64,000 nt of DNA from Bacteroidota bacterium (GTDB lineage Bacteria; Bacteroidota; JABWAT01). The stretch lies in assembly GCA_017303995.1 (NCBI GenBank), contig JAFLBE010000016.1, positions 1 to 64,000 on the forward strand, given 5' to 3'. A program made the position numbers and the translations under genes. The notes beneath the pieces are model-generated. The model was not told where the DNA came from and did not search any database. It saw only the letters and a program-made list of their open reading frames with translations. Shown here in pieces: positions 4,325-25,267 of the stretch. Each line of letters starts with the position of its first letter. Within the stretch, counting starts at the first letter, position 1.

Positions 4325-4372
4325 GTATTTTCAGGGACAAGTGACGTGGGACAAGGGACGAAAATAAGCAAA

Positions 4373-4482
4373 GTTCCCCTCCTTTTTTAAAGGAGGGGTG
4401 CCGAAGGCGGGGTGGTTTCGTTTTCCCTTTGAATTTATGAAAAACCACCCCCAGCCCCTCCTTTAAAAAAGGAGGGGAGTTA
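4373..4482. repeat. Full-length inverted copy of repeat family C
   Basis: An approximately 110-bp element with inverted ends: TTCCCCTCC...GGGGTGGTTT at the left and AAACCACCCCC...GGAGGGGAGTT at the right. It lies between the GH26 stop and the GH2 start. The paired ends make it look like a small non-autonomous mobile element, although no target duplication was confirmed. Confidence 0.7.
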
Positions 4483-4509
4483 AGACTTTACTATTAACAA
4501 TTTACAACG

Positions 4510-7320
4510 ATGACAAAACTCCTTTTTCTACTCACCCTTCTTTTCCTTCCGGCCACTATGAATGCACAGTACAAACTCAATTTTGGATTATCTCAGCCAC
4601 AGGATCCGGCCACTCTGCCAAAATCGAAAGTGCCGGTTGTTCTGCCAGTGAAAAAGGAAAAAGTCTCGATTCCTACGAAACTGATTCAGGCAAAAGACAA
4701 TGAAATGATTTTGTCAGCCGGGTGGGAGTTAATCGAAGCAGAAAATGCCGGCGCAACCGGAGAAACCATTTCCAAATCGTCATATTCAACAAAAAACTGG
4801 ACCAATGCTGTTGTTCCCGGAACGGTGCTGACGTCCCTGGTTCAGCAGGGTGTTTACCCGGACCCGTATTTTGGCGTGAACAATCTGGCGATTCCCGATA
4901 CCCTTTGCAGAATGGATTGGTGGTACCGGATTTCCTTTCAATCGCCGGAGAAAAAATCAGAAAAAACGTGGCTGCTGCTGAACGGAATCAATTACCGGGC
5001 AATCATCTGGCTGAACGGAGAAAAACTCGGGAAAATGAACGGTGCCTTCGTCCGTGGTGAATTTGATATTACCGGAGTTGTAAAATCAGCCGGGGAGAAT
5101 GTACTTGCGGTTCAGATTCTGCCGCCACCGAATCCGGGAATTCCGCATGAAGAATCACCAACGGCTGGAACAGGTCCGAATGGCGGACAGTTGTGTCTTG
5201 ATGGTCCCACTTTTATTTCATCGGAAGGATGGGACTGGGTTCCGGGAATCCGTGACCGGAATATCGGAATCTGGCAGGATGTCAGGCTGAAATTTACCGG
5301 CGAGGTAGTGCTTTCCGATCCGCAGATCATCACTGATCTTCCTTTGCCTGAAACCACTTCCGCCAAACTGACGATAAACACACAAGTGAAAAACACGTCT
5401 GCATCCGCACAGGAAATTGTCATTTCCGGATCCATTGAAAAAATCATAGTCAACCAGACTGTGACCCTGAAACCCGGAGAAACCAAAACGGTGTCGTTTG
5501 CACCCGATCAGTTTCCCCAGCTGATGATTAAGAACCCGAAATTATGGTGGCCGAACGGATATGGTGAGCAGAATCTTTATTCCGTAAAAATCACCGCCGC
5601 GAAAAAAAGCCTGATTTCCGACGAAAAAACCGTCAGATTCGGAATTAGGGAGATGTCGTATGAACTCAATGTTGACACCCCATCCGAAAAAGGAAAACGA
5701 ATTGAATTTAATCCTGTCAAAGATCAAACGGAAGGAAAACCTCTTTTTGATTTTAACAAAGCAAGGGTTTATAAAGACGGAATTTCAATTGCGCCGCTGC
5801 ATGAGGGAATTGATGCCGGGAAGCTGACTCCACTTGCTGATACCACGATGAATCCCTATCTCGTCATCAAGGTCAACGGACAGCGGATATTCTGCAAAGG
5901 CGGCAACTGGGGCATGGATGATGCCATGAAACAGGTTGACCGGAACCATCTTGAACCGTACTTCCGGCTGCATAAAGACGCCAATTTCACCATGATCAGA
6001 AACTGGACCGGGGAATCGACTGAAGAGGTTTTCTACGAACTTGCTGATGAATACGGACTTCTCGTCTGGAATGATTTCTGGCTGTCAACCGGTGGATATA
6101 ATCTGAATCCGAACGACAATCTGCTTTTTCTGGACAATGCAAAAGAGGTCATCCGCCGGTTCAGAAACCATCCTTCAATTGCTTTGTGGTGTGCCAGAAA
6201 TGAAGGTGTTCCGTTACCTCAGCTTGAAACCCAGCTTGAAGTTTTGCTTGCCGCCGAAGATCCGACCCGGTTTTACAATCCCGATTCCCGTGCTTTGAAT
6301 CTGCGCTGGAGCGGACCCTGGCATTATCAGAAAGATCAAACCGAATACTATAAAAACATTGCTTTCGGGTTTTCAACCGAACTTGGAACTCCGTCTGTTC
6401 CGACTGCAGAAACCATGAGAAGTATGATGGCGAAGGAAGACGTCTGGCCCATCAGTGACGTCTGGTATTACCACGATCTGCACGACGGTCAAAAAGATTA
6501 TCTGGCAACAATTGAAAATCTGTACGGAAAATCAGAATCGCTGGATGATTTTTGCAAAAAAGCTCAGCTCGTGAATTATGACAGTCACCGGAACATGTTT
6601 GAATCGTGGAACAGCCGGCTCTGGAACAACACGAGCGGCGTTTTACTCTGGATGACCCATCCGGCATGGCCAAGTACGGTCTGGCAGGTGTATTCGTCGG
6701 ATTATGAAACGTTCGGATCTTATTACGGATCGAAAAAAGCCTGTGAACCCATCCACGTGCAGATGAATCTGGATAATCTGAAAACGGTTGTCATCAACAC
6801 CACGCTGAACAAAATCGAAAAAGCTTTGGTGAGGTTGGATATTGCCGACCTTGCAGGAAAAATCATCCATCAATCCGAACAAAAACTGGATATTCCAGCC
6901 AATCAGCTTTCAAATTGTGAGAAACTGGATTTACCGGCCAATCTGCCGGATGTTTATCTGGTCAGACTCACGGTTTCTGACCGGAAGGGGAAAATCCTTT
7001 CCCAAAATGAATACTGGAAAAGCCGGATACCCGGCAATGAATTCACCGCTTTCAATTCGCTGGGAAAGACAAAAATTACCGTTAAGCCAGTTACTTCAGG
7101 AAAGAAAAATCAGCTTTCCTTCGAACTGAAAAATACCGGAAAAACACCGGCAATTGCAGTCGATCTTTCGCTGACCGATAAGAAAACAGGCGCACGAATT
7201 CTTCCGTCCTATTTCTCGGAAAAGTATTTTACCTTGCTGCCGGGTGAAACAAAAACCATTTCGGTTGAATTTGAAAACGAAAATCAGCCTGAGCTTTTAG
7301 TTTCGGCTTATAATCTGTAA
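4510..7320 (+). CDS. GH2 family exo-glycosidase, beta-mannosidase or exo-glucosaminidase-like
   Basis: A 936-residue secreted GH2 enzyme with a signal peptide ending in MNAQ. The order is the usual jelly-roll, Ig-like, TIM barrel and C-terminal Ig-like domains. GWDWVPGIRDRNIGIW and CKGGNWGMDDAM resemble the GH2 branch containing exo-beta-D-glucosaminidase and plant endo-beta-mannosidase rather than classical beta-mannosidase. The predicted acid/base is Glu565 in CARNEG and the nucleophile Glu624 in FSTELGTP. It is followed 21 bases later by the next lipoprotein gene, so the two are probably co-transcribed. Context argues for removal of mannose, or of a sugar decorating mannan; substrate is inference. 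Confidence 0.82.
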   Translation: MTKLLFLLTLLFLPATMNAQYKLNFGLSQPQDPATLPKSKVPVVLPVKKEKVSIPTKLIQAKDNEMILSAGWELIEAENAGATGETISKSSYSTKNWTNAVVPGTVLTSLVQQGVYPDPYFGVNNLAIPDTLCRMDWWYRISFQSPEKKSEKTWLLLNGINYRAIIWLNGEKLGKMNGAFVRGEFDITGVVKSAGENVLAVQILPPPNPGIPHEESPTAGTGPNGGQLCLDGPTFISSEGWDWVPGIRDRNIGIWQDVRLKFTGEVVLSDPQIITDLPLPETTSAKLTINTQVKNTSASAQEIVISGSIEKIIVNQTVTLKPGETKTVSFAPDQFPQLMIKNPKLWWPNGYGEQNLYSVKITAAKKSLISDEKTVRFGIREMSYELNVDTPSEKGKRIEFNPVKDQTEGKPLFDFNKARVYKDGISIAPLHEGIDAGKLTPLADTTMNPYLVIKVNGQRIFCKGGNWGMDDAMKQVDRNHLEPYFRLHKDANFTMIRNWTGESTEEVFYELADEYGLLVWNDFWLSTGGYNLNPNDNLLFLDNAKEVIRRFRNHPSIALWCARNEGVPLPQLETQLEVLLAAEDPTRFYNPDSRALNLRWSGPWHYQKDQTEYYKNIAFGFSTELGTPSVPTAETMRSMMAKEDVWPISDVWYYHDLHDGQKDYLATIENLYGKSESLDDFCKKAQLVNYDSHRNMFESWNSRLWNNTSGVLLWMTHPAWPSTVWQVYSSDYETFGSYYGSKKACEPIHVQMNLDNLKTVVINTTLNKIEKALVRLDIADLAGKIIHQSEQKLDIPANQLSNCEKLDLPANLPDVYLVRLTVSDRKGKILSQNEYWKSRIPGNEFTAFNSLGKTKITVKPVTSGKKNQLSFELKNTGKTPAIAVDLSLTDKKTGARILPSYFSEKYFTLLPGETKTISVEFENENQPELLVSAYNL

Positions 7321-7341
7321 TCGGAAGGTATTTAGATCCAA

Positions 7342-8802
7342 ATGAAAAAAACACTTGCCTTATTGGGTTTACTTTTGGGATTGGCTTCCTGTTCACAAAA
7401 TGAACCTGATGATGCAGACATAGTGGATCCGGGTAACGAAGCCCGGTTACCCGTTGAAGCAGCCACACTTGTTGCAGATGCGGGTAATCTGATTTACCAG
7501 ATGAAAGATGGGTATGGGGCAAATGTCACAGCAATCAGTACCAGCATCGTGGTTAGTAAATATGGCGGTAAACTTGGGAGTGCCTATTGTGAACTTCCGC
7601 CGGCCAGTGATAATGCAAGCTGGAATTCAATTTTTGGGTTTATGAACTGGTCAGGGCTTGACTGGATCAGGCTGATGATTGAAATGAATGACTTTGAACC
7701 CGAAAAAGATAATTTTACCTGGGATAGTCCCAATTTTCTGCGATTACTGAAAATACTCGATTGGGCACAGGCGAATGGTGTTAATGTTCTTTTACAATTA
7801 CAGGATAACTGCACAACCTGGAATACCATTCCGGGTCAGGATCCGGCTTACAGTGCACCCCATGATCTGGATGCATTTACAACAGGATTTGCAACCATGA
7901 TGGAGTATCTGGTTAAAACCAAAGGTTACACCTGCATCACCATGTGCAATATTGCAAACGAGCCCATGAACAGCTGGGGTTGGTGGAGAGGTGGAGTTGA
8001 TATTTCTCAGGGATATAAGGCAACCCGGGAGGTGCTTGATAAAAAGGGAATTTCGGTTCCTTTGGTTGGACCAGAATACTTTCAGGATGCGAAGTTTACG
8101 TTGAACTGGAATGCCTGCAAACCGTGGCTGGGTGCATTTGAAACTCATAATTATGCCGATGTCGGGAAGGGTGGATGGGCACTCCGTCCAATTTCTGATT
8201 TGAGTTACCCGGTTTATTGGGGAGAGTTTGGCGGGGGTGACAACTCGAATTATGACTGGAATATCAAAGTTGCAAAATGGTTTGTTGGCGGCGCTAAAAA
8301 TAAAATTGATGGATTCGCCCGCTGGAGTTATCTGAATCAGAATAATATTGACGGGACATTTTCCTACATCAATACCTATCAGGTTGCTGAAATAACGCCG
8401 ATGAAAAATCTCTATTGGCAGGATGGAATGGTGTCCCGTTTTACAGCTAAAAATTCTTATGTCTATCAGGTTACGTCATCAGACAAAGCCCTGACTTCAA
8501 CTTTGTTTAAAAGTCCGGGTGGTAATTTCACCCTAATTGTGGTTTCTGACAATACCTCAACCAACTGGAATACCACAATTTCCTTTGAAGGATTACCCGC
8601 CGGAATTACCCTGAAGAGATATGTTTGTACGCCGGGAACAGTAAAAGATAAAACGAGCGGAGTTTCAATTGCTTCAAATGGTTCCTTCACGGTTGGTCCG
8701 GCTTCCAAATCATTCAAGGATACCATTTATGACAACAGTATTTTTGTGTATTCGACCTACAATTTATCTGACAAGGTGGATGGAATTGTAAGCGATCCCT
8801 GA
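7342..8802 (+). CDS. GH5-like (clan A) glycoside hydrolase lipoprotein
   Basis: A 486-residue lipoprotein (signal ending GLASC) with a TIM-barrel glycosidase domain of cellulase/GH5 type. The acid/base candidate is Glu207 in NIANEPMNSWGWW and the nucleophile Glu295 in PVYWGEFGGG. The C-terminal 110 residues or so look like a beta-rich domain (LIVVSDNTSTNWNTTISF), possibly carbohydrate-binding. It begins 21 bases after the GH2 stop. I cannot assign a subfamily: by context mannan or glucomannan is the likely substrate, but a cellulase-like activity on mixed-linkage glucomannan is equally possible. Confidence 0.75.
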   Translation: MKKTLALLGLLLGLASCSQNEPDDADIVDPGNEARLPVEAATLVADAGNLIYQMKDGYGANVTAISTSIVVSKYGGKLGSAYCELPPASDNASWNSIFGFMNWSGLDWIRLMIEMNDFEPEKDNFTWDSPNFLRLLKILDWAQANGVNVLLQLQDNCTTWNTIPGQDPAYSAPHDLDAFTTGFATMMEYLVKTKGYTCITMCNIANEPMNSWGWWRGGVDISQGYKATREVLDKKGISVPLVGPEYFQDAKFTLNWNACKPWLGAFETHNYADVGKGGWALRPISDLSYPVYWGEFGGGDNSNYDWNIKVAKWFVGGAKNKIDGFARWSYLNQNNIDGTFSYINTYQVAEITPMKNLYWQDGMVSRFTAKNSYVYQVTSSDKALTSTLFKSPGGNFTLIVVSDNTSTNWNTTISFEGLPAGITLKRYVCTPGTVKDKTSGVSIASNGSFTVGPASKSFKDTIYDNSIFVYSTYNLSDKVDGIVSDP

Positions 8803-9048: not shown

Positions 9049-12000
9049 ATGAGAACCAATAAAGTTATAACCATCAGTCTGATTGCTGGACTTTTCCAGC
9101 TTTTTACCACACAACTTTTTGCGCAGGAAGCTGATCACGGGAGCGCTGCAAACCGGGGAAGAAACATCCACGCAGGAAACAAAGTGCGTATGACTTTCTC
9201 AAACAACGGAAGCATGGGAACTGAAAAGGGATTAATTGGTGCCTACACGGGTGAATGGCCGATTGGCACTGGTAAGGTGCAAATGGGAAATGCCTCCCCC
9301 TTTGTTATGTCAGAACTTCGTTTTTTCAAGGGTCTTGATCCGGTAACAGGTGATTCACTTTTTGATTTTGTAACGCCAGCCATTTTCTGTCAGGGTTGGG
9401 ATCCGGCAATATTCAGTCATGACTCCGCAGGCGCACATTGGGGCTTTGAGCCCCTTTCCGGTTATCTGAATCTTCATAACCTGTCTAATGATCCGGGACA
9501 TGCCGTAGCCATGAGTAACATGCCAAGAACCTGGCCATTTTCATGGAACAATCACTGGAAAGGTTTTGCCGGAAATGATCAGGTTATTGGTGATGAGGAA
9601 AGTTATTTCGTTCTGGATGATTATTCCTTTAAGAAAAAGTTCAACAACCGCAAATTGCCTTTGCCTGTTGCCTCAGAACCTGACCGAGGCGGACTTGGTC
9701 TTGAACTATCAGTCAGAGGACTTCAGTGGTCTGATCCTGACCTCGAAGATATGATTTTCTGGATTTATGACCTGAAAAACAAGGGTAATCTGGATCTGAA
9801 TAAAACCGTTTTTGGAATCAACGTTGGCACTTCAAGTGGCAATTTGTTAAATGGTTCAGGTTCTGATAATAATGATGATGCCTTTCGTTTCTACCGTGAA
9901 AAGGCGTTTGTTGTCAGTTATGACCTTGATAATATTGGGGTTGGCGGGTACACTCCGGTTCCCTGGATGGGTTTTGCACTGCTTGAAACGCCGGGCAATC
10001 CTTTAGACGGAATTGATAATGATGGGGATGCAAATAGTCTGGGAACCGGGAAAGTCATCACCGAAAATGATTTTACCCAATTCTATGCAGTTGGAGCACA
10101 GATTGTAACCATCGATTATAATAACCCTGCCTATCCAAGAACAATTAAGACTATGCCCGCAGGAGGGCTAAAGGTCAGTCACAACGGAACAAACCTGATT
10201 TTAAAACCCAATGCGCCATTGTTTGAGATTCCCCGTAATGGTGTTGATGACAATTTAAACGGACTCATTGATGAAAGTGATGGCGCAAAAATTTACGATC
10301 CGGTTCTGAAAGATTCTGTTTCCTACTATCTCTACATCTATAACAGTCAGGATTATCTGGCTATTGACTATTTCACCGGTGAAGGAAAAAACAACAGTCT
10401 GATTGATGAACGGAAAGATGATGGAATTGATAACGATGGTGACTGGGATCCATCTTTTGATGATCTGGGACTTGACGGAAAACCCAATACCCATGATACC
10501 GGTGAAGGTGATGGGGTTCCAACTTCCGGAACCGGTATACAACCTGGCGAACCTAATATTGACCAAACAGATTCTGATGAATCTGATCAGGTTGGGCTAA
10601 CAGGATTCAGAAGCTACATTTATAGTACGTTAACCTACAGTAACGATGAGCAAATGTGGGAATTCTCCCGGCCTGGTGGTTTTAATAATTCTACAATTGG
10701 TCAGGCAGATTACGATTATTTATTTTCTGCAGGATATTTTCCCTTGAAACCGAATACCGCTGCCAGAATTGGTGTTGCCCTCATTTATGGCGAGGATGAA
10801 CAGAATATTTTAAGGAATAAAATTTTTGCTCAGGAATATTACAATTCCAATTTCAATGCGGTTCTCACGCCTGAAAAACCAACGGTTACTGCTGTTTCCG
10901 GGAAAAATTCAATCAAGATTATGTGGGATGATGTTGCTGAGGAAAGCTATGATCCATGGCTGCGGGCTTATGATTTTGAAGGATATAAGGTCTATAAATC
11001 AGAAACTCCATCATTCAAAGATGCCTCTGGCAACCTGATAAAGCCAATTGCAGTCTATGATAAAATTGACAGTATTTATGGATATTTTCCGAAAGATTTT
11101 GGAAACGGGCAACTTTTTTTCCTCGGAAATGAAACGGGTTTAAGTCATTTCCTTATTGATAACAATGTCAAAAATGGAGTTCCCTATTATTATGCTGTGA
11201 CCTCGTATGACCGGGGGGATTTGATTAAAAACATGGGTCCTAAGGAATCAACTGTCTATATTGAGATGGATTCAACCGGTTTTTTATACACCGACCAGAA
11301 TGTGGTAAGGGTATTTGCCGGAGATTCTTTACCACCCATTTCTACCAATTTCGATTTTGTACCGGTTAAAGAAAATCCAGGTTTTACAGAGGCTGCTTTG
11401 GGCGTCAATGTTATAAACTCAGATTCATTGGAAATCGGGGATCAGTATCAGATTCAGTTTTTGGATTGTTCAATGGATAACCGTGACAATGATTTCAACG
11501 GATTGACCGATTCGCTTGACCGGAATGAAGTTCTTCCAACGGAAACAACAGGCTTCGTTCTTAAGAATTTAACGAAAAATCAGTCTGATACTTCCTGGAT
11601 TTACACCTATGCCAAAAACGGGCAAGATTATGTTTTGCTCCGGAATTTATATGATGACTCAGACGGAAACCCACGCACTTTGAGGAAAGGAACAATGGGT
11701 CTGCAGGTTTATGTGAAAAACCCTGAGGCCGGAATTTATAATAACCCGGAAAAGGGTATTGTAAAGGGAATCACCTGGCATTCTGTGACCAATCTTTCTC
11801 CTTATGAAATAGAATTCGACCTTTTCAATCAGGGTGGATTTAAAACGGGAACGGCTTATCCACGGCAGTATAAAATAATCTTTTCTGACGAGATTGCAGA
11901 TACTTCAGAACGGATTGAAGTACCACTTTTATACGGTGCTTCCATTTTTACCAAGGAAACTCCGGTTAACTTCCGTATTTATGATGCGGAAACAGGAGAG

Positions 12001-12567
12001 AAATTAAACTTTGGTTCTTCTGATGTGACAAGGGCAGGACGTATAAAACCCCCAAAAGGATTTTTTTCTGGCGGTGATAAAATCATCCTTTACGAGAAAT
12101 TACCTGATGGATCCACTGTCATTAATTATCAATTGTTCAACAGTACCACAGAAGATTCTACTTTTTACAATTTAAACGGCAGGTTCATTGGTGCAGGTGA
12201 TACCTTATTGCTATCCACTACCAGCGAATTAAAGAGCACTGATGTCTATTCCTTTACATTAACACCAACCGGGATTGAAGAAAATAACGCAGGTGCAAAA
12301 CCGGTTTCATTTTCACTTTCCCAGAACTATCCTAATCCGTTCAATCCCGCCACGGTCATCAATTACCAGTTGCCGGTTAACAGCATGACCAAATTGAAAA
12401 TCTATGATGTGATCGGACGGGAAGTTGCAACTCTGGTTAATGAAAGGAAGCCGGCAGGTCGTTATCAGGTAACCTTCAATGCCGGGTATTTATCATCCGG
12501 CGTTTATTTTTACCGCATCGAAGCCGGTAGTTTTGTTCAAACGAAGAAGCTGATTCTTGTAAAATAA
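9049..12567 (+). CDS. Large T9SS-secreted surface protein of unknown function in the mannan locus
   Basis: A 1172-residue protein with an N-terminal signal peptide (ending LFAQ) and a C-terminal type IX secretion sorting domain starting at NYPNPFNPATVINYQLP and ending KKLILVK. Several Asp/Asn-rich loops (GIDNDGDANSLG, GVDDNLNGLIDES, GIDNDGDWDP, NRDNDFNGLTD) resemble calcium-binding thrombospondin type-3-like repeats. A fibronectin-III-like segment begins near KPTVTAVSGKNSIKIMWDD. No catalytic motif was recognised. It has its own promoter and sits between glycosidase genes, so a polysaccharide-binding or scaffold role at the cell surface is plausible but unproven. Similar long T9SS proteins are common in Ignavibacteria-like genomes, so its location could be coincidental. 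Confidence 0.8.
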   Translation: MRTNKVITISLIAGLFQLFTTQLFAQEADHGSAANRGRNIHAGNKVRMTFSNNGSMGTEKGLIGAYTGEWPIGTGKVQMGNASPFVMSELRFFKGLDPVTGDSLFDFVTPAIFCQGWDPAIFSHDSAGAHWGFEPLSGYLNLHNLSNDPGHAVAMSNMPRTWPFSWNNHWKGFAGNDQVIGDEESYFVLDDYSFKKKFNNRKLPLPVASEPDRGGLGLELSVRGLQWSDPDLEDMIFWIYDLKNKGNLDLNKTVFGINVGTSSGNLLNGSGSDNNDDAFRFYREKAFVVSYDLDNIGVGGYTPVPWMGFALLETPGNPLDGIDNDGDANSLGTGKVITENDFTQFYAVGAQIVTIDYNNPAYPRTIKTMPAGGLKVSHNGTNLILKPNAPLFEIPRNGVDDNLNGLIDESDGAKIYDPVLKDSVSYYLYIYNSQDYLAIDYFTGEGKNNSLIDERKDDGIDNDGDWDPSFDDLGLDGKPNTHDTGEGDGVPTSGTGIQPGEPNIDQTDSDESDQVGLTGFRSYIYSTLTYSNDEQMWEFSRPGGFNNSTIGQADYDYLFSAGYFPLKPNTAARIGVALIYGEDEQNILRNKIFAQEYYNSNFNAVLTPEKPTVTAVSGKNSIKIMWDDVAEESYDPWLRAYDFEGYKVYKSETPSFKDASGNLIKPIAVYDKIDSIYGYFPKDFGNGQLFFLGNETGLSHFLIDNNVKNGVPYYYAVTSYDRGDLIKNMGPKESTVYIEMDSTGFLYTDQNVVRVFAGDSLPPISTNFDFVPVKENPGFTEAALGVNVINSDSLEIGDQYQIQFLDCSMDNRDNDFNGLTDSLDRNEVLPTETTGFVLKNLTKNQSDTSWIYTYAKNGQDYVLLRNLYDDSDGNPRTLRKGTMGLQVYVKNPEAGIYNNPEKGIVKGITWHSVTNLSPYEIEFDLFNQGGFKTGTAYPRQYKIIFSDEIADTSERIEVPLLYGASIFTKETPVNFRIYDAETGEKLNFGSSDVTRAGRIKPPKGFFSGGDKIILYEKLPDGSTVINYQLFNSTTEDSTFYNLNGRFIGAGDTLLLSTTSELKSTDVYSFTLTPTGIEENNAGAKPVSFSLSQNYPNPFNPATVINYQLPVNSMTKLKIYDVIGREVATLVNERKPAGRYQVTFNAGYLSSGVYFYRIEAGSFVQTKKLILVK

Positions 12568-12692
12568 GTTTTTCAGGTTTCGGTTTTAATAGATTTCCCC
12601 TTCCTGAATACCAGAATTTTTCAGACAACACGCTGAAAAATTCTGTGATTTTTTTATTCCTCATTCCCTTTCCAGTAAAATCAAACTCAGAA

Positions 12693-12710
12693 TTTGGCAC
12701 GATTCTTACT
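12693..12710 (+). promoter_or_regulatory. TTTGGCAC box, possible sigma-54-type promoter
   Basis: TTTGGCAC-GATTC-TTACT lies 64 bases before the TTG at 12774. Compared with the sigma-54 consensus TGGCAC-N5-TTGCW, the -24 half is perfect and the -12 half differs at key bases, so it is a weak candidate. Confidence 0.35.
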
Positions 12711-12773
12711 CTGCAATAAAACGATTCTCAGAACTGCATTTTATGTAGATTCATTTATTGATTGGACTTAAAA

Positions 12774-14225
12774 TTGAAAAAACGGATTCTCATTTTCCTG
12801 CTATGCACAGCTTCACTCGTTTCAGCACAGTCACTTCCCCGGTTCGAAGCTGAATCCGGTACCAACCAGTTTCTGGTTTTGTTGCAGGATTCTGCAGCAT
12901 CCGGTCGGCAGTTTTTGCGGATGAAAGATTCGGGTTCGGTAACCTGGAAAGTTCCGGCAGAAAAATCCGGCTGGTTTAATCTGATTGTCCGGTTTCGTGC
13001 TTTTGGCGGAGAAAAAGAGCAGCTGATCATCAAAAACGGAAGAACCATTCCGACCGGATTCCCGATCAGTGACCAGTGGACAACTTTAAAAAGAGCAGTT
13101 TCCCTCGACAAAGGTGAAAATACCATTTCCATCTCCAAAAGCTGGGGCTACATGGATATTGATTATCTTGAAACCGAGCCGGTTAACCTGAAACCCGAAT
13201 TGGTGCCCATCCGGAATCACGTTCTTTCCACACAACCCCGTGACCTTCATTTCAAGTGGAATGCCTACGGGAAAAAGCTGAATTCTGTTTTACTGGACGG
13301 GAAAAAGTCGGAACTTAAAACGACTGTTTACCCGCATCAGGAAGACGCTTACCAATCCATCCTTGAAAAAGAAAAGCTTGCAAATCTTAAATCAGGAAGT
13401 CACACCCTTCAGATGATTTTTGATTCAGCAGATACATTGAAGTCGGTTTTTACGGTTTCACAGAAACCCGTTACTTCACCGCTGGTCATTGTTTCCCCTG
13501 ATGTTGAACATGGGTCTTCGGTTATCATCCGCCTTCCTACAGGCAAAATCATGATGGTGGATACCGGAAAAGACTGGGTTCGTGATCAGATTCTCATTCC
13601 GTTTCTTCAGCGGGAAAAAATTACCAAAATAGATTATCTGCTGATAACTCATTATCACGATGATCATGACAGTGGTGACCGGGGCGAAAAAATCAGAAAT
13701 CTGTTTCAGGTGGATCAGTTTATCGATTATTCAACTTACAAAACCGGAACCGTTTTACCTTTTGAAGGGACCTCACTCAAAATCCTGAACTGCAGTGAAG
13801 ACGGAACGGAAGAAAACACCAAATCCCTTTCCTTCAAACTGACCTATAACGGATTCTCTTACACTCACGGGGCTGATACCTACGGACTGAATCAGCAACT
13901 CATGCTGGACCGTTTCCCTGATGATACCCGGACCGATGTTTTTATGGCCAATCACCATTTTCACGGATCGGTCAATGTGGATTATTTACGGAAACTGGAT
14001 CCGGTTCTGGTTCTGATTCAGGCGCAGGAAGCCATTTATGCCCGGAGTGCCTTCATGCTCTGGTTTCGTGAAGAAACAGAATCCTGGTGGCGGAAATCAA
14101 AAAGCCGTTATCTGGAATCCCTGCCAGCCCTTGAAGTTGGAACTACAGTGATCAAAGTCAGAACCGGACAGGACTGGACTTATGAAACGCATCAGTCCAA
14201 TGAAAACCTTGAACTTTTAAAATAA
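12774..14225 (+). CDS. Secreted CBM35-like / metallo-beta-lactamase-fold fusion protein
   Basis: About 483 residues. No ATG precedes the signal peptide (KKRILIFLLCTASLVSAQ), so a TTG start is used: 12774 by signal-peptide length, or 12762. Residues about 20-140 form a CBM35-like domain: RFEAESG at its start and GENTISISKSWGYMDIDYL at its end match the CBM35 of the GH26 at 15398. After a middle beta-rich segment comes a metallo-beta-lactamase fold with MVDTGKDW and His293-x-His295-x-Asp297-His298, then a further His pair in NHHFHGSV. This resembles ComEC/Rec2-type hydrolase domains. The gene lies 15 bases before a GH26 gene. The hydrolysed substrate is unknown; a secreted carbohydrate-targeted hydrolase such as an esterase or lactonase is only a guess. 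Confidence 0.72.
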   Translation: MKKRILIFLLCTASLVSAQSLPRFEAESGTNQFLVLLQDSAASGRQFLRMKDSGSVTWKVPAEKSGWFNLIVRFRAFGGEKEQLIIKNGRTIPTGFPISDQWTTLKRAVSLDKGENTISISKSWGYMDIDYLETEPVNLKPELVPIRNHVLSTQPRDLHFKWNAYGKKLNSVLLDGKKSELKTTVYPHQEDAYQSILEKEKLANLKSGSHTLQMIFDSADTLKSVFTVSQKPVTSPLVIVSPDVEHGSSVIIRLPTGKIMMVDTGKDWVRDQILIPFLQREKITKIDYLLITHYHDDHDSGDRGEKIRNLFQVDQFIDYSTYKTGTVLPFEGTSLKILNCSEDGTEENTKSLSFKLTYNGFSYTHGADTYGLNQQLMLDRFPDDTRTDVFMANHHFHGSVNVDYLRKLDPVLVLIQAQEAIYARSAFMLWFREETESWWRKSKSRYLESLPALEVGTTVIKVRTGQDWTYETHQSNENLELLK

Positions 14226-14240: not shown

Positions 14241-15392
14241 ATGAAAAAACTAGTTATTCTCCTTTCGGTTTTGTCCTTTTCTGTTGGAACTACTTCTGCA
14301 CAAATCGACCCGGACGCAACAAAGGAAACCAAAGCGCTTTACAAAAAACTTCAAAATCTTACCGGAAAGGGAAGTCTATTCGGTCACCAGGATGATCTGG
14401 CTTATGGTTACACCTGGTCAGAAGGAGCTAACCGCTCGGATGTGAAAGACGTCACCGGTTCGTATCCCGGGCTTTTCGGCTGGGATTTTGGTTATCTCGA
14501 AATTGCCGGCGCCACCCACAACATTGACGGCGTTCCCGGTGACAGCATCAGAAAATGGATTCAGTTCGGAAATGAAGTAGGTTCTGTTATCACGCTGAGC
14601 TGGCATATTAAAAATCCCATTTATGAAAAAGCAACGGCTCCCGATCAGAACACCGTTGAACAACTGCTTCCCGGCGCACCCAAACACCAGCTGCTTGCCG
14701 AACGGCTCGATCGTCTGGCAGCTTTCATTTTAAGTCTGAAGGATAAAAACGGCAACCCGATTCCCATCATTTTCCGTCCGTGGCATGAACATAACGGGGA
14801 GTGGTTCTGGTGGGGACAAAAAAACTGTACGCCTGATCAGTATGTTCAGTTGTGGCAGTTCACCGTGAGATATCTTCGTGATGAAAAAAATATTCACCAG
14901 CTTTTATATGCGATCTCTCCTGACCGCAGCAGAACCCAGATTGAAACCTTTGAGTCAGATTATTTTTACGCTTATCCGGGAGATGAGTATGTCGATATTC
15001 TCGGGTTGGATAATTATTGGGATGTAGGACATCCGTACAACAATACCCCAATGGACAAATGTGTTGAAAACCTGATTACCAGCTTATCGGTCCTTTCAGA
15101 TATCGGCGTCAGAAAAAATAAACTCACCGCCCTCACAGAAACCGGAAATGAAACCGTAAAAATCAAAAACTGGTACACGGGAATTCTTCTGAAGGGACTT
15201 GCTGCAAACGAAAAAACCAAAAGAATGGTGTATTCAATGGTTTGGAGAAACCGCACCAAAGCAATTCTTCAGCCAGATCATTATTACACGCCCTATAAAG
15301 GTCACCCGGAAGAAGCAGATTTTATCAAATTCAAAAATGATCCGTTCATTCTTTTTTCTGATGAACTCTCCGATTTTAATAAATTGAAATAA
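14241..15392 (+). CDS. GH26 family beta-mannanase, secreted
   Basis: A 383-residue GH26 enzyme with a cleavable signal peptide (ending TTSAQ) and no lipobox. Conserved blocks are FGHQDDLAYGYTW, DVTGSYPGLFGWDFG, WHIKNPI, acid/base Glu183 in RPWHEHNGEWFWWG and nucleophile Glu300 in LTETGNE. It is the closest relative in this window of the GH26 at 1926, but that one is a lipoprotein and this one looks freely periplasmic or exported. It follows the CBM35/MBL gene by 15 bases and precedes the modular GH26 by 5 bases, so the three form one transcription unit. Mannanase family assignment is firm; mode of attack is not known. Confidence 0.9.
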   Translation: MKKLVILLSVLSFSVGTTSAQIDPDATKETKALYKKLQNLTGKGSLFGHQDDLAYGYTWSEGANRSDVKDVTGSYPGLFGWDFGYLEIAGATHNIDGVPGDSIRKWIQFGNEVGSVITLSWHIKNPIYEKATAPDQNTVEQLLPGAPKHQLLAERLDRLAAFILSLKDKNGNPIPIIFRPWHEHNGEWFWWGQKNCTPDQYVQLWQFTVRYLRDEKNIHQLLYAISPDRSRTQIETFESDYFYAYPGDEYVDILGLDNYWDVGHPYNNTPMDKCVENLITSLSVLSDIGVRKNKLTALTETGNETVKIKNWYTGILLKGLAANEKTKRMVYSMVWRNRTKAILQPDHYYTPYKGHPEEADFIKFKNDPFILFSDELSDFNKLK

Positions 15393-15397: not shown

Positions 15398-17083
15398 ATG
15401 AAATCCATCGTTTTAATCCATTTTCTCGCCTTTCTCTTTTTGTTTTTTCAGCAAACGGGTTATGCTCAGCATTATTTACTTGAAGCAGAATCGGGAAAAT
15501 TAACTTCCGTCCAAAAATCAACAACAAATCCGGGTTATTCAGGAACCGGTTACGTCACGGGGATGACTTCGGATGGAAGCAGAATCGAACTTACTTTTTC
15601 AGCAACAGCAGGACTTTTTTCTGCTTTTCTCGGATTTGCAACACCGGGCGGTGCAAAGGGTTATGAGGTTGAAATCAACGGCATAAAATCATCGGGCATG
15701 TTACCCGAAACCGGTAAAACATTTTCAAAAGCCGGAATGGGGAAAGTTGAACTGAAAACCGGTGACAATACAGTCGTTGTGAAAAAGGGATGGGGTTGGT
15801 TTGATGTCGATTATGTTTTATTTGAAACGGCAACCGTTCCCGAACTTTTACCGGTTCCGGATTCTCTGATTGATGGACAGGCATCAAGCCTAACCCGTTC
15901 ACTTCACCGGTTTCTTCGTGCCCATTACGGCAAGAAAATTCTCTCCGGACAGCAGGATGAAGACGATCTGGATTACGTAAAATCAATCACGGGCAAAACC
16001 CCGGCGGTCGGACATTTTGATTTTATGGATTATTCTCCGTCACGGATTCAGTTTGGTGCCAATCCGACCGGAAACACCGAGAAAATGATTGCGTGGGCTA
16101 AACGCACCAATGGACTTGTTAGTATTTCTTGGCATTGGAATGCACCCACTGATCTGATCAATCTGGCGCCTGATAAACTCTGGTGGAGCGGATTTTACAC
16201 CCGGGCAACCACGTTCGATATCAAAGCCGTACTTGCAGATCCGGGCGGATCCCGTTATCAGTTACTGCTCAGGGATATGGATGCCATTGCCGTGCAGCTG
16301 AAGAAATTCCAGACGGCGGGAATTCCCGTTTTGTGGCGGCCTCTTCATGAAGCTGCCGGCGGTTGGTTCTGGTGGGGAGCAAAGGGAAGTCAGCCATTTA
16401 TTGAGTTGTGGCGGCTGATGGTGAGCCGGCTTCGTGATCATCACGGTATTCACAATCTGATCTGGGTGTACACAACCGGTGATCAGAGCTGGTATCCGGG
16501 TGACGAATTTGTGGATATCGTTTCTCATGATATTTATACTGACAAAGGCTCCCCGATGAGCGGCCAGTGGGATGAAACCTTTGTTCATTTCAACGGGAAA
16601 AAACTGGTGACGCTTTCAGAATCGGGGACTTTGCCGGTTCCGGCGAAAATTCCGGCTTACGGTACGTGGTGGTCGTATTTTTCATTGTGGTCAGGTGATT
16701 TTATCAGGAAAATTCCCATTTCAGAAGTCAAAGCCGTTTATTCGCATCCGCTGATTATGAACGCCGAAGACCTTCCCGACTGGAAAAATTATTCATCAGT
16801 TGAGTTACCGCCTTCTGTTCCTTCTGAAATAAGACTTAAAAATTACCCGAATCCGTTTAATCCGGGTACGAAACTGGTTATTTCTTCGCCAACCTCTCAG
16901 GATTTGAAAGTTTCCATTTCGGATATTCTGGGCAGAACGATTCAGGAGTTGGAGTTGAAACGGTTTTCTGCCGGTGAAAATGAAGTGATTCTCAACGGAT
17001 CATCCTGGTCCTCCGGACTTTATTTCGTCCGTGTTGAAGGCGGAAAATCAACAGCAATTCAGAAAATTATTCTGGTGAGGTGA
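15398..17083 (+). CDS. Modular CBM35-GH26 mannanase with T9SS sorting domain
   Basis: A 561-residue secreted enzyme with three parts. After the signal peptide (ending YAQ), residues about 25-145 form a CBM35-like mannan-binding domain (YLLEAESGKL ... GWGWFDVDYVLFE). The GH26 catalytic domain follows, with SGQQDEDDLDYV, SWHWNAP, acid/base Glu318 in RPLHEAAGGWFWWG and nucleophile Glu408 in TLSESGTLP. The last 80 residues are a type IX sorting domain (NYPNPFNPGTKL ... QKIILVR). It is therefore probably exported to the outer surface and is the best candidate for first attack on polymeric mannan. Its CBM35 is homologous to the one in the MBL-fold gene two positions upstream. Confidence 0.92.
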   Translation: MKSIVLIHFLAFLFLFFQQTGYAQHYLLEAESGKLTSVQKSTTNPGYSGTGYVTGMTSDGSRIELTFSATAGLFSAFLGFATPGGAKGYEVEINGIKSSGMLPETGKTFSKAGMGKVELKTGDNTVVVKKGWGWFDVDYVLFETATVPELLPVPDSLIDGQASSLTRSLHRFLRAHYGKKILSGQQDEDDLDYVKSITGKTPAVGHFDFMDYSPSRIQFGANPTGNTEKMIAWAKRTNGLVSISWHWNAPTDLINLAPDKLWWSGFYTRATTFDIKAVLADPGGSRYQLLLRDMDAIAVQLKKFQTAGIPVLWRPLHEAAGGWFWWGAKGSQPFIELWRLMVSRLRDHHGIHNLIWVYTTGDQSWYPGDEFVDIVSHDIYTDKGSPMSGQWDETFVHFNGKKLVTLSESGTLPVPAKIPAYGTWWSYFSLWSGDFIRKIPISEVKAVYSHPLIMNAEDLPDWKNYSSVELPPSVPSEIRLKNYPNPFNPGTKLVISSPTSQDLKVSISDILGRTIQELELKRFSAGENEVILNGSSWSSGLYFVRVEGGKSTAIQKIILVR

Positions 17084-17776: not shown

Positions 17777-20590
17777 TTATTTCAGCAGCACGATTTTTCT
17801 GGTTTGAGAAAAATCCCTTGCGGTCATCCGGCAGAAATAAACCCCGCTTTTCAGATCAGAACCATCCAGCCGGACCGTCCAGGTTCCTGCAGGTTTAAGT
17901 TCATCAACCAGAGTTTTCACTTCCTGTCCCAGCAGATTAAACACTTTCAAAGTAACCTGTCCGGAAGTGGCTGTGGTAAAGGTGATATCGGTTGTTGGGT
18001 TGAACGGATTTGGATAATTTTGTTCCAGACGGGTTTGGCTGGGTTGTTCCCGATTGTCATCAACATCGGTTGCGGTATTTTCAATAGAAAGCCAGTGAAG
18101 TTTAAATCCGCCTTTTCCGGCGGCAATTTTGAAAGTCTGTTCACCGGCATAAACCCCGATCAGCTGTTTCACCGTCGTCCAGGTTGTCCAGCTGCCGGTT
18201 ATCGGGAGTGAACGGGTTCCGAGGTTTTTGGTGCCGATTGAAAAGGTCACACTTCCTGCAACGCTGGCTGACGAAATCCGGAGATAGAGAAATTTTTGAG
18301 CTGTCACCGGCGAGGAAATCCGGTATTCCATCCAGTCACCATCATCAATACTGGTCAGGTTAAATCCGCCATCCGGTTCATCTGACGGTTCAATTTCCAC
18401 ACCAGACATATCACTGAATTTTTCAGCACCTATTCTGGCCGGGACTTCAATGGCTGCCGGTACAATCCAATTCACAACTTCTTCATTTGAAAACGGAGAT
18501 ACCAATCCCCCATCTTTTGATTGAAGGTTTCCGGAGAGATAACTGATGGTTACCACGTTTTTACGATCGAGAGTTCTTCCCAGATCAACCAAAAGTGTAG
18601 TTGAATCACCCGGTTTTATCGAAACAGAAAGAGGATCCTCAAAAAGATCAAGATCTGCTGTCAGCCGGAAAGACGATTCTGATCCTGCCGGATCTTTCAT
18701 TTCCTTGTTAAATGTCAGTTCAATGTGGGATCCGTCAGGTGCAACAATCGTACTTTGAAGAACAGGAACTGAACCCACTTCCGAATCCGAAAAAGACTGA
18801 ATTCCGTAACCGTACGGATATAACGGATGGTAATTTTCGTCGCCAAAATTGATCGGAATCTGACTCATCGATTTCGGCCAGGTGTGAGGAAGGAGTCCTT
18901 GAGGTTGCCTGTCACCAAAAAGTACATCGGCAATGCCGTCTCCTTCGGTTCCGGGAAGCCAGGCAGCAACAATGGCATCGGTGAAGTGGAGGGCATTGGT
19001 CAAGATCATCGGCCGGCCAGAAATCAGAATTAATACAACAGGGTGACCCAGATTTTTCATTTTCCGAAGCAGCTCAACATCTGTTTTCGGAAGTTCGAGT
19101 GTTGCCCGGTCTCCCTGTCCTTCTGCATAGGGTGTTTCACCGATGACCACAACAGAATAATCAGCATCGACCGGATTGGTAAACTCACCGGTCGCAGAAA
19201 AATCAAACTGAACGTCAGGAGCCACTATTTTAAATCCGTTTAAAATAGTTGTGCCGGTTGTTGTTGCGCCAGGTCTTCCCTGCCAGGTAATTGACCATCC
19301 GCCCGACTGAAGTCCGATATCATTGGCATGAGAACCGGCAACCAGAACCCGCTTTGCAGATTTTGAAATGGGCAGAACGCCATCTTTTCTTTTCAGCAGA
19401 ACCAGCGATTCACTAACGGCTTTTCGGGCAACGGCACGGTGTTCGGCTGAACCGACAGAAGCCAGAAGCGACCGGTTGGCAAACGGTTTTTCAAAAACGC
19501 CTTTTCTGAATTTGATTCGAAGAATCCGGGTCACGGCATCATCAACTCTGGATTGGGAAATTTCACCCGAGGTAACCAGAGATTTCATGGCGACGAGAAA
19601 ATCGTTGTAACGGAAGGGAAGCATGACCATATCCACACCGGCGTTTATCGATTGTTTCACCTGTTCGGAATAAGATCCGGGCAATTGATCCACCGCAGCC
19701 CAATCCGAAATGATAAATCCGTCAAAACCCAGTTCCGTTTTCAGCACGTCGGTCATCCAGTATTTGTTGGCGTGCATTTTAAGTCCGTTGATGCTGTTGT
19801 AAGACGCCATGACCGTTCCCGAACCTGATTTTACCGCACTGATATAACCGGGAAGAAATAGTTTTCTCATCGTGGCTTCATCGGCGATTGTATTTCCCTG
19901 ATCGTCACCGCCAAAGGTTCCGCCGTCACCCAAAAAGTGCTTGGTGCTGGCGATGATACTGGTTTCGCCGGATAGGGAATCTCCCTGATAACCCAAAACG
20001 GAAGCTGCAGTTAAAGTCACGGCAAGTTCCGGCGTTTCTCCGAATCCTTCGTAAGTCCGACCCCAACGTTCATCCCGAACGACGGCGTTGCAAGGCGCAA
20101 ACGTCCAGTTGATTCCGGTTGATGCTACTTCAATTGCAGTGATTCTTGCAACCTGAGCAACCAAGGCGGAATCACGGGTTGCACCCAGCCCGATATTGTG
20201 CGGAAAAAGTGTGGTTCCGGTAACGCCACTGAAACCGTGAACGGCATCAATGCCATATAAAAGAGGAATTTTCAATCGGGATTTCAGTGCCCGCCCCTGA
20301 AGTGTATCAACCAGATCCGCCCAATCCTGAACGGTATTTGATCCGGTTTTATTGTCGCCGCCGCTTAAAATGGAGCCGATGGTGAGTTTTGTAATATCCT
20401 GTTTGGCGCCGGTGATTCCGGTATGATCAACCTGCATCATCTGACCGATTTTTTCATCCAAAGTCATTCGACCGAGCAGATCCTGCACACGGTTTTCAAT
20501 GGGTTGTTTGGGATCGAGATACGGAGGAGTTTGTGAGAATCCTGCAGAAAATTCACATAAAAATAGAAAGGTCAGGGAAAAACGGTTCAT
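17777..20590 (-). CDS. GH3 family beta-glycosidase with CBM6-like and T9SS sorting domains
   Basis: A 937-residue secreted enzyme on the opposite strand from its neighbours. The start at 20590 gives a signal peptide ending AGFSQ. The GH3 N-domain holds the nucleophile Asp296 in GFIISDWAAVD, with KHFLGDGGT and the usual two-domain GH3 body after it. C-terminal to it are a fibronectin/SLH-like linker, a CBM6-like domain (FNLTSIDDGDWMEYR ... GGFKLHWLSIE), and a T9SS domain (NYPNPFNPTTDITF ... RKIVLLK). GH3 members in such loci are usually beta-glucosidases, which would fit removal of glucose from glucomannan fragments. Specificity for glucose rather than xylose is not shown by sequence. Confidence 0.87.
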   Translation of the reverse strand: MNRFSLTFLFLCEFSAGFSQTPPYLDPKQPIENRVQDLLGRMTLDEKIGQMMQVDHTGITGAKQDITKLTIGSILSGGDNKTGSNTVQDWADLVDTLQGRALKSRLKIPLLYGIDAVHGFSGVTGTTLFPHNIGLGATRDSALVAQVARITAIEVASTGINWTFAPCNAVVRDERWGRTYEGFGETPELAVTLTAASVLGYQGDSLSGETSIIASTKHFLGDGGTFGGDDQGNTIADEATMRKLFLPGYISAVKSGSGTVMASYNSINGLKMHANKYWMTDVLKTELGFDGFIISDWAAVDQLPGSYSEQVKQSINAGVDMVMLPFRYNDFLVAMKSLVTSGEISQSRVDDAVTRILRIKFRKGVFEKPFANRSLLASVGSAEHRAVARKAVSESLVLLKRKDGVLPISKSAKRVLVAGSHANDIGLQSGGWSITWQGRPGATTTGTTILNGFKIVAPDVQFDFSATGEFTNPVDADYSVVVIGETPYAEGQGDRATLELPKTDVELLRKMKNLGHPVVLILISGRPMILTNALHFTDAIVAAWLPGTEGDGIADVLFGDRQPQGLLPHTWPKSMSQIPINFGDENYHPLYPYGYGIQSFSDSEVGSVPVLQSTIVAPDGSHIELTFNKEMKDPAGSESSFRLTADLDLFEDPLSVSIKPGDSTTLLVDLGRTLDRKNVVTISYLSGNLQSKDGGLVSPFSNEEVVNWIVPAAIEVPARIGAEKFSDMSGVEIEPSDEPDGGFNLTSIDDGDWMEYRISSPVTAQKFLYLRISSASVAGSVTFSIGTKNLGTRSLPITGSWTTWTTVKQLIGVYAGEQTFKIAAGKGGFKLHWLSIENTATDVDDNREQPSQTRLEQNYPNPFNPTTDITFTTATSGQVTLKVFNLLGQEVKTLVDELKPAGTWTVRLDGSDLKSGVYFCRMTARDFSQTRKIVLLK

Positions 20591-20723
20591 GGTAAAATCC
20601 TGGAATAAATGGATAAAAGAGAAACAGCAAAAATCACACCAGAGAGACAATTGTTAATTGTTAATGGTGAATGGTTAATTCGGTCAATGGCGAACGGGTT
20701 AATGAAATTTCTGATTTGAAAAA

Positions 20724-20818
20724 ACTCCCCTCCTTTTTAAGGAGGGGAAATCAGTCGCAAGACTGATGGGGTGGTTTCTGGCTTGACTCTTCAAAATCAC
20801 AAAACCACCCCTCCCCGG
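20724..20818. repeat. Repeat family C copy
   Basis: AACTCCCCTCC-TTTTTAA-GGAGGGG ... GGGGTGGTTT and, further on, AAACCACCCCTCCCC; same organisation as 4373-4482 but with a different centre (CAGTCGCAAGACTG). Confidence 0.7.
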
Positions 20819-20938
20819 ATAGAGTCAGGATTTAAAACTGATGGACACCGAGTGCCCATCAGTTGACGGGCGTATCGAGGTGCCGGGAATTTGTATGACC
20901 TAACAGCCAACAGCTAACAGCTTCCCACCCCTCCCCCT

Positions 20939-20955
20939 TTGGCACCGTTCTTGCA
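20939..20955 (+). promoter_or_regulatory. Sigma-54 (RpoN) promoter before the beta-mannosidase gene
   Basis: TTGGCAC-CGTTC-TTGCA matches the -24/-12 consensus TGGCAC-N5-TTGCW exactly, with the GG and GC dinucleotides at the right spacing. The predicted transcript would start about 12 bases after the GC, some 30 bases before the ATG at 20998. Sigma-54 promoters need an enhancer-binding activator; none is encoded in this window. Confidence 0.65.
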
Positions 20956-20997
20956 CCTCATGAAAACACATCAGATTTTCAATTTTTCAGGTGAACC

Positions 20998-23565
20998 ATG
21001 AAACTACTTTCTTTTCTTTCCATTTTTCTTTTTCCCATCCTTTCAGTTCTGGCGGTTGACCCGGATTCTCACCCCGAAAGTTTGAGTATTTACAAAGGCT
21101 GGTCGTTCAGTCAGGAAGGGCAATCCACCTGGCTTCCGGCATCAGTTCCGGGAACGGTTCATACCGATCTGATGGCTTCCGGGAAAATCAAGGATCCCTT
21201 TTTCGGACTGAATGAAAAGGAGTTGCAATGGATTGGAAAAGTAAACTGGATTTATAAAACCACGTTTTCAGTTCCCGCAGAACTCATGGCAAAGCAAAAT
21301 CTGATGCTGGTTTTTCACGGACTTGATACTTACGCCGACGTGACCTTAAACGGGAAATCGATTCTTTCTGCCGACAATATGTTCCGAACCTGGAAAGTTG
21401 ATGTCAAAAAACTGGTCAAAGCTGAAGGAAACGACCTTCAGATCACGTTCCGGAATGTTTTCGATGAAAATCTGCCAAAATGGAAATCTGCTCCCTTCCG
21501 GTTGATGGCCTTCCCGAATAATGATCAGGCCGACACGATGCTGGCTTTGTATTCACGCAAGGCACAATTTCATTACGGGTGGGATTGGGGTCCGAGACTC
21601 GTCACAGCCGGAATCTGGAAAAATGTGGAACTCTGTGGATGGGATTCTTTTAAAATTGAAACAGTTCAGGTGATCACGGCGTCTCTCACCAAAGAACTGG
21701 CGAACATCCAGACGGTCACAGAAATCCGGTCAGATATCGCCCAAAAAGCAGTGCTTTCGATAACACTCGACGGAAAAGAAATTCAATCGCAGCCAGTTTC
21801 ACTTCAACCCGGAACAAACCGTCTTCCGGTTAATTTCGACGTGAAAAATCCGAAAATCTGGTGGCCGAACGGCATGGGAAATCCTGATCTGGTTACCCTT
21901 TATTTTTCAGTGAAGACTGACAAGGGTACCGATGGGAAAACGGTAAAAACAGGTATCAGAACGATTACAGTCAACCGGGATAAGGATAAAGACGGACACG
22001 CTTTTGCGGTGGTGGTAAACGGAATTCCGGTTTTCATGAAGGGTGCAAACTACATTCCCCAGGATAATTTTCAGAACCGGGTCACCCGTGAACATATTGA
22101 TTATATCGTAAAATCTGCCCGTGACGCCAATATGAATATGCTGCGGTTGTGGGCCGGCGGCATTTTTCAGGTAGATGATTTTTATGCATCCTGTGATGAA
22201 AACGGAATTCTGATCTGGCATGATCTCCTGTTTGCCTGTGCCATGTATCCGTCTGATCAGCACTTTTATCAAAATGTGAAAGCTGAGCTGGAAGATAATG
22301 TCAGGCGGATCCGGAATCATCCGTCCATTGCCCTGTGGTCAGGAAATAACGAAAACTATATCTCCTGGCACAACTGGGGATGGAAACAGCTGTTCAATGA
22401 ATCTGATCAGAAAAAGTATGAACAGGATATGATGGATCTGTACGAAACCCTGCTTGGTGATGTTCTCAAGGCAGAAGATCCGTCAAGATATTATACCAAA
22501 TCGAGTCCGGTTGCAGGCTGGAATAACATTCCGAATGGTGAAGGTGATATTCATTACTGGGGTGTCTGGCATGGGAAAGAACCGTTTGAAAAATATGAAG
22601 ATAATCTTGCCCGGTTTGTGAGTGAGTACGGATTTCAATCTTATCCTGAATATTCAGCAATAAAAAAATTCACCAATCCGGAAGACCGCCATCTTCATTC
22701 TGAAACCATGCTGTCCCATCAGCGTTGCATGGCCGATGACCGGAAGGACAGGGAATACGGCAACCGGTTGATCAAAACTTACATGGATGACTGGTACCGG
22801 GAACCAAAGAATTTTGAATCGTATGTGTATGTGAGTCAATTGGTTCAGGCGGAAGGTGTAAAAATTGCCATCGAAGCTCACCGCCGGGCCATGCCCTACA
22901 CCATGGGCAGTTTATACTGGCAGATCAACGACTGCTGGCCGGTTGCATCCTGGTCGAGTATTGACTGGTACGGCAACTGGAAGGCACTTCATTATGTCGC
23001 AAGGGAAGAGTTTAAAAACCTGCTCATTGCACCAAAAGTAAACGGTGAAAACGTAGATCTGAAAATAGTGTCTGACCTTTTGGAAGATCAGCAAGTCACT
23101 TTTAAAAGGAGCGTCATGGATTTTTCGGGAAAAGTAATTTCTGCTGATTCTTTTCCGCTGACTGTGAAAAAACAAGGTGTTACTATTGGTGGAAGTTTTC
23201 CGGTTTCATCTTTGGTAAATGGCAAAAAGGAAAATGAAATCCTCATTCTCTGGACGATGGAAAAGGAAGGAAAAGAACTTGCCCGTCAGATTCAATATCT
23301 CACAAGACCAAAGGCACTTAGCCTGCTGGCTCCTGACCTGAAATGGAGTTTGAAGTCAGCTTCCGGCGGACTTGAATTAACGGTTTCAACGGAAAAGCTG
23401 GCAAAAAATGTTTTCTTTAGTACGGAATTGAACGGTGTTTCATTTGGTGATAATTTCTTCGACCTCCTGCCCGGAGAAACCCGGATTATTCAGGTTAAAG
23501 CCAGTCAAACGCCTGACGTCCTGAAATCCGGATTAAAGGTCATGACCCTGACGGATACGTTTTAG
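20998..23565 (+). CDS. GH2 family beta-mannosidase, secreted
   Basis: An 855-residue protein with a signal peptide (ending VLAV) and the complete layout of a GH2 beta-mannosidase: sugar-binding domain with VPGTVHTDLMASGKI and DPFFGLNE, HYGWDWGPRLVTAGIW, Ig-like domain, TIM barrel and C-terminal beta domains. The acid/base is Glu452 in WSGNNENY and the nucleophile Glu543 in FVSEYGFQSYPE, both as in known beta-mannosidases. It would remove mannose from the non-reducing ends of manno-oligosaccharides in the periplasm. It has its own sigma-54-like promoter. The stop codon is the first of several TAGs in a GTAGGCA tandem repeat. Confidence 0.93.
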   Translation: MKLLSFLSIFLFPILSVLAVDPDSHPESLSIYKGWSFSQEGQSTWLPASVPGTVHTDLMASGKIKDPFFGLNEKELQWIGKVNWIYKTTFSVPAELMAKQNLMLVFHGLDTYADVTLNGKSILSADNMFRTWKVDVKKLVKAEGNDLQITFRNVFDENLPKWKSAPFRLMAFPNNDQADTMLALYSRKAQFHYGWDWGPRLVTAGIWKNVELCGWDSFKIETVQVITASLTKELANIQTVTEIRSDIAQKAVLSITLDGKEIQSQPVSLQPGTNRLPVNFDVKNPKIWWPNGMGNPDLVTLYFSVKTDKGTDGKTVKTGIRTITVNRDKDKDGHAFAVVVNGIPVFMKGANYIPQDNFQNRVTREHIDYIVKSARDANMNMLRLWAGGIFQVDDFYASCDENGILIWHDLLFACAMYPSDQHFYQNVKAELEDNVRRIRNHPSIALWSGNNENYISWHNWGWKQLFNESDQKKYEQDMMDLYETLLGDVLKAEDPSRYYTKSSPVAGWNNIPNGEGDIHYWGVWHGKEPFEKYEDNLARFVSEYGFQSYPEYSAIKKFTNPEDRHLHSETMLSHQRCMADDRKDREYGNRLIKTYMDDWYREPKNFESYVYVSQLVQAEGVKIAIEAHRRAMPYTMGSLYWQINDCWPVASWSSIDWYGNWKALHYVAREEFKNLLIAPKVNGENVDLKIVSDLLEDQQVTFKRSVMDFSGKVISADSFPLTVKKQGVTIGGSFPVSSLVNGKKENEILILWTMEKEGKELARQIQYLTRPKALSLLAPDLKWSLKSASGGLELTVSTEKLAKNVFFSTELNGVSFGDNFFDLLPGETRIIQVKASQTPDVLKSGLKVMTLTDTF

Positions 23566-25251: not shown

Positions 25252-25267
25252 AAAAGAAAAGTACAGA

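Follow-up and report, generated by a model that had tools for sequence, protein, structure and literature searches.

The metallo-beta-lactamase (MBL) domain of ComEC binds DNA too weakly on its own to be detected, and an attached DNA-binding OB domain brings the substrate and raises activity (PMC12455585). The phosphorylcholine esterase Pce/CbpE (2bib, 1wra) also joins a hydrolase to a polymer-binding module, in this case choline-binding repeats, and removes phosphorylcholine from a polymer, teichoic acid (PMC7785958). The two active sites differ at motif II, where ComEC has an Asp for one His, and at motif III, where Pce has a His and ComEC an Asn (PMC8579336). Secreted MBL proteins of COG2333 form a further group, in which the exported domain is accompanied by an accessory anchoring domain (SLH, lamin-tail, SH3 or T9SS tail); none of those examined carries a carbohydrate-binding module (CBM). 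Among mannan-degrading enzymes the closest counterparts are mannanases that place a CBM35 at the N-terminus of a GH26 TIM barrel, such as Podospora PaMan26A (CBM35 structure 3zm8). We found no paper in the literature searched that links the MBL fold with mannan degradation.

Here we analyse a gene for a CBM35–MBL fusion protein in a mannan locus of a Bacteroidota bacterium. The locus lies in a stretch of 64,000 nucleotides (GCA_017303995.1, contig JAFLBE010000016.1, positions 1 to 64,000), hereafter the window. Each of the two domains has known counterparts; what is new is their pairing, found in a single genus.

Results

Two domains in one exported protein

The fusion gene lies in an open reading frame at 12762-14225 on the + strand (Table 1), and TTG 12774, which yields a clean signal peptide, is its most likely start. 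Both domains score above the Pfam cut-offs, CBM_35 (PF16990) at residues 56-140 with 54.2 bits against a cut-off of 28, and Lactamase_B (PF00753) at residues 248-305 with 38 bits against 22.7. The middle domain matched no family above the Pfam cut-off and looks Ig-like in the predicted model, by appearance only.

Table 1. Features of the fusion gene and its surroundings in the window. Residue numbers of the fusion protein are counted from TTG 12762.
Feature	Position	Strand	Details
GH26, GH26, GH2, GH5-like (upstream mannan genes)	1827-8802	+	Pfam
T9SS-tailed protein, 1172 aa, no known family	9049-12567	+	PF18962 the sole match; directly upstream of fusion gene
Terminator-like hairpin and T-run	12612-12645	+	z -5.1; between T9SS-tailed gene and fusion gene
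Conserved leader, ~100 bp, likely promoter region	12665-12773	+	nearly identical in sister species; DNA before the leader is not
CBM35–MBL fusion gene	12774-14225	+	483 aa from TTG 12774; 487 aa from TTG 12762
Signal peptide MKKRILIFLLCTASLVSA-Q(S)	12774-12830	+	from sequence; no lipobox
CBM35 domain	12831-13187	+	residues 24-142; PF16990 E 2.3e-14; fold match 3zm8
Beta-rich middle domain, ~95 residues	13188-13475	+	residues 143-238; predicted strands, moderate to low pLDDT
MBL domain, COG2333/ComEC-CTD/Pce type	13476-14222	+	residues 239-487; PF00753 E 1.6e-9; Foldseek
Motif I Asp D267	13560-13562	+	invariant in alignment A5
Motif II THYHDDH (H297, H299, D301, H302)	13647-13667	+	H297, D301, H302 invariant
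Motif III Asn N352	13815-13817	+	invariant; ComEC-type Asn rather than His
Motif IV Asp D372 (HGAD)	13875-13877	+	invariant
Motif V ANHHFHGS (H398/H399)	13947-13970	+	HH invariant; NHH context common to Pce/CbpE
GH26 mannanase, no T9SS tail	14241-15392	+	PF02156 E 2.3e-48; 15 bp downstream of fusion gene
CBM35-GH26-T9SS tail mannanase	15398-17083	+	PF02156 E 2.7e-73, PF16990 E 2.7e-20, PF18962; 5 bp after GH26 14241
GH3-CBM6-T9SS (-), GH2 beta-mannosidase-like, MFS sugar transporter, GH130 mannooligosaccharide phosphorylase	17777-26582	.	Pfam

The protein was folded in silico as two overlapping parts (alignments A3 and A4 of relatives), and both models leaned on alignments with family members as rows. 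For the N-terminal part, whose alignment contained CBM35 rows, the prediction is a CBM35-type beta-sandwich that matched 3zm8 with an rmsd of 2.2 over 125 columns at 25% identity; 2w1w, 2vzp and 4qb2 matched too, and the CBM35/CBM6 modules among the matches include one from a ruminal GH26 mannanase. By sequence, too, 3zm8 is the nearest solved relative, and the domain is 33% identical (E 1e-7) to the CBM35 of the neighbouring CBM35-GH26 mannanase. The fusion protein has the predicted CBM35 fold and N-terminal position of PaMan26A and of that neighbour, with an MBL domain where these carry a TIM barrel.

At E <= 0.001 the MBL model had 241 matches in the PDB, headed by MBL-fold proteins; its last ~65 residues are poorly modelled and unreliable. 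Foldseek ranked the ComEC C-terminal domain (CTD) of Moorella glycerini first (9ic4, E 9e-13), followed by Pce (2bib, E 2.4e-8) and, third, a PhnP-family diphosphatase. ComEC CTDs are also the best solved relatives by sequence, and the sequence match to Pce is weak (E 0.0014).

These results bear out what a reading made from the letters alone (the sequence-only reading) had claimed of the protein itself. The fusion is real by Pfam and by both predicted folds, the structure prediction that it had proposed as a check returned a carbohydrate-binding fold at the N-terminus, the CBM is homologous to that of the neighbouring GH26, and the signal peptide fits its description of a secreted protein. 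The C-terminal Por_Secre_tail domain (T9SS) was absent by Pfam from the fusion protein and present in the products of the genes at 9049, 15398 and 17777. Because it has no such tail, unlike its partner CBM35-GH26, the fusion protein may remain periplasmic and out of reach of polymeric mannan, in which case its targets would be oligosaccharides.

A complete metal-ligand set in an aberrant domain

In an alignment of 15 domains D267, H297, D301, H302, N352, S355, D372, H398 and H399 are invariant, and H299 completes HxHxDH in the fusion protein, so that the metal-ligand set of motifs I to V is full. The sequence-only reading had described a complete HxHxDH domain of ComEC-like type. THYHDDH is indeed accompanied by the other superfamily-invariant metal-ligand positions, and the ComEC-like assignment stands at family level, through the solved relatives; HxHxDH itself is no distinguishing mark, since it occurs in most Bacteroidota ComEC proteins, mostly as [TS]HPHxDH. 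We dropped HxHxDH as a sign against ComEC for the same reason.

The domain shares its motif III Asn, motif IV Asp and motif V HH with the ComEC CTD 9ic4, a member of the same clan, and its MVDTG, THxHxDH and NHH contexts with Pce/CbpE. At the motif II position for which an Asp is described in ComEC it has His, as Bacteroidota ComEC proteins mostly do, and N352 aligns with the motif III His of Pce. Most of what separates motif II from motif III in ComEC-type domains is missing, as is YGHP, and motif V reads ANHH-FHGS rather than VGHHGS, with an insertion after it. The surrounding architecture differs as well. The fusion protein has neither the transmembrane competence domain (PF03772, Pfam) nor the OB fold of ComEC, and none of the choline-binding repeats of Pce/CbpE by Pfam; the MBL domain is joined to a CBM35 instead.

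In a phylogenetic tree the fusion MBL has a very long branch and falls with some of the secreted stand-alone relatives (98/93), although its exact placement is unsure because the branch is so long. The tree separates it from the genome's own ComEC, located elsewhere on contig C64, and we therefore rejected a recent copy of that gene as its origin. Identity to the secreted COG2333 proteins is 20-28%. One of these, from another genome of the phylum (L118 6972-8651), is a stand-alone protein with a T9SS tail, which in that lineage puts MBL hydrolases of the COG2333 clan outside the cell. Secreted SH3-like plus MBL proteins from two genomes of a single family form their own branch (L115 7188-8438, L116 7206-8525). 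Viral contigs yielded no close relative; distant COG2333 relatives served as alignment rows.

Other identities were rejected in turn. For a beta-lactamase resistance gene the best NCBIfam bla model reached 22.9 bits against a cut-off of 590, matches to anti-phage defence proteins were weak and confined to the generic MBL stretch, and a Fontibacillus hit (L018) matches through its CBM35 domains alone and has no MBL.

Selection, distribution and gene neighbourhood

The sister species (L017/G002) encodes an orthologue that is 94% identical. Between the two, the MBL domain shows a dN/dS of 0.058, compared with 0.14 in the CBM35 and 0.22 in the middle domain; the signal peptide evolves fastest (0.86), and the neighbouring GH genes give 0.063-0.084. 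Purifying selection is thus strong on the MBL domain, so that it is probably active, and its position as the most constrained part of the protein argues for catalysis.

The locus comprises four GH26, two GH2, GH5-like and GH3-CBM6 genes, an MFS sugar transporter and a GH130, which together make up a coherent beta-mannan/glucomannan pathway. The whole arrangement, including the 15-bp and 5-bp gaps downstream of the fusion gene, is conserved in the sister genome. The sequence-only reading had the gene cotranscribed with two mannanases; the operon-like spacing held, and cotranscription with the two GH26 genes is, on this basis, likely.

Conservation does not extend far. The fusion architecture occurs in two of the three genomes of the genus and is absent from the sister genus, and full-length and C-terminal queries against 370 near-complete genomes of the phylum found no further case. 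In the third species (G001), GH2 is followed directly by GH26 in the orthologous mannan locus, and the GH5, T9SS-tailed and fusion genes are absent. Judged from this distribution, the fusion is a young, dispensable, lineage-specific addition to the mannan locus. The linkage with mannan genes that the sequence-only reading had named as a check was therefore kept in the sister species but found nowhere else, and the link to mannan amounts to one evolutionary observation rather than many.

Discussion

Proposed function

We tentatively favour a two-metal hydrolase that is tethered to mannan and strips a substituent from the glycan. Exported by the Sec route, the protein would be held by its CBM35 on beta-mannan or mannan fragments, and the MBL domain, as a member of the ComEC-CTD/Pce clan, would use a metal-bridged hydroxide to cut off the substituent, after which the two co-encoded GH26 mannanases could proceed. 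By analogy, the CBM35 could play the tethering part for this MBL that the OB domain plays in ComEC. Family precedent (ComEC CTD, Pce/CbpE) points to a phosphodiester as the bond cut, with an acyl ester as second choice. We know of no phosphodiester substituents on plant beta-mannans. In the extract of a mannan review used here, acetyl groups are named as a decoration and phosphate is not mentioned. The earlier proposal of a new hydrolase on substituted mannan (acetyl, lactone or phosphoester) may be right, but its linkage to mannan is a single evolutionary observation; of its substrates, the phosphodiester has the best family precedent, and for acetyl and lactone the closest relatives found offer none. 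A bolder form of the claim, that this is a CBM35-guided, MBL-fold remover of phosphodiester or acyl groups from beta-mannan, the first MBL in an operon for mannan breakdown and the founding member of a family of carbohydrate-active hydrolases not seen before, seems to us conceivable but doubtful.

The main rival to a substituent-removing hydrolase is a nuclease tethered to glycan, its MBL domain a DNA/RNA phosphodiesterase that the CBM35 parks on mannan-rich biomass or biofilm, where it would break down extracellular DNA. That the nearest solved structures by both sequence and fold, the ComEC CTDs, are nucleases, and that secreted relatives bear other anchoring domains (SLH, T9SS tail, SH3), gives this account its footing, but we consider it unlikely: the gene shares a compact operon with two mannanases, its product lacks the motif II-III segment and YGHP of ComEC-type domains and shows no DNA-binding helper domain, and its MBL stands apart from the genome's own ComEC in the tree.

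A second alternative takes the acyl branch of the favoured reading alone and casts the protein as an MBL-fold deacetylase or lactonase that replaces an acetylmannan esterase missing from the locus. No carbohydrate-esterase domain was found among the locus genes scanned in the window, whereas the mannan cluster of the sister genus (G003) has a GDSL esterase with F5/8C and a T9SS tail (L073 2596-4398) adjoining a GH26, and a SASA-type esterase (L072 5162-6106); this difference is what keeps acyl-ester cleavage under consideration. The GH26 directly beside the GDSL esterase is 41% identical, acetyl is the main known decoration of mannan, and the MBL superfamily includes lactonases. We nevertheless regard the alternative as improbable, since the closest relatives are phosphoesterases with no acyl esterase known among the close MBL relatives here, motif III carries the Asn of ComEC, and the replacement idea is based on one neighbourhood, in which the esterase gene is not homologous to the fusion gene. 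If the substrate were acetyl, the functional counterparts would be the acetylmannan esterases CE2 and CE17, which as far as we know belong to families different from the fusion MBL; the protein had no esterase family domain match in Pfam or NCBIfam.

Equally improbable, in our view, is a non-catalytic or unrelated role, in which the protein would bind or sense a ligand or scavenge phosphate, for example, and would lie beside the mannanases incidentally: occurrence in two sister species only, absence from the third species' locus and the very long MBL branch would suit such a young addition, but the MBL domain retains its full ligand set and has a dN/dS of 0.058, and both species keep the synteny and the 5-15 bp spacing.

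The CBM35–MBL protein is, on comparative grounds, a real, conserved and new domain pairing that is probably active. Mannan digestion may have a new helper enzyme in this protein, whose nearest solved MBL relatives cut phosphate esters. As a remover of mannan decorations it would add a fold to the carbohydrate-active hydrolases and hint at a mannan substituent not yet recognised; as a nuclease it would be a DNA-cutting domain retargeted to a plant polysaccharide. Wider impact is limited for now because both domains have counterparts and the pairing was found in a single genus.

Other features of the locus

The terminator-like hairpin upstream of the fusion gene is not conserved in the sister species, which has at that place an insertion of ~190 bp with inverted-repeat-like segments (TGTCATCCCCGCGAAGGC...; L017 ~9635-9900). 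A second copy of the T9SS-tailed protein encoded at 9049-12567, 41% identical over 580 aa, is found in the same genome (L074 16773-18515, - strand, contig C78) and adjoins two large multidomain GH26 genes, so the 1172-aa protein may accompany mannanases repeatedly as a partner at the cell surface. Near the start of the window, the gene at 234-1745 encodes a TIM-barrel-like protein below the Pfam cut-off, with a weak GH2_C match; it has counterparts next to GH26 genes in G001 (71% conserved) and G003 (51%) and is possibly an unassigned glycosidase.
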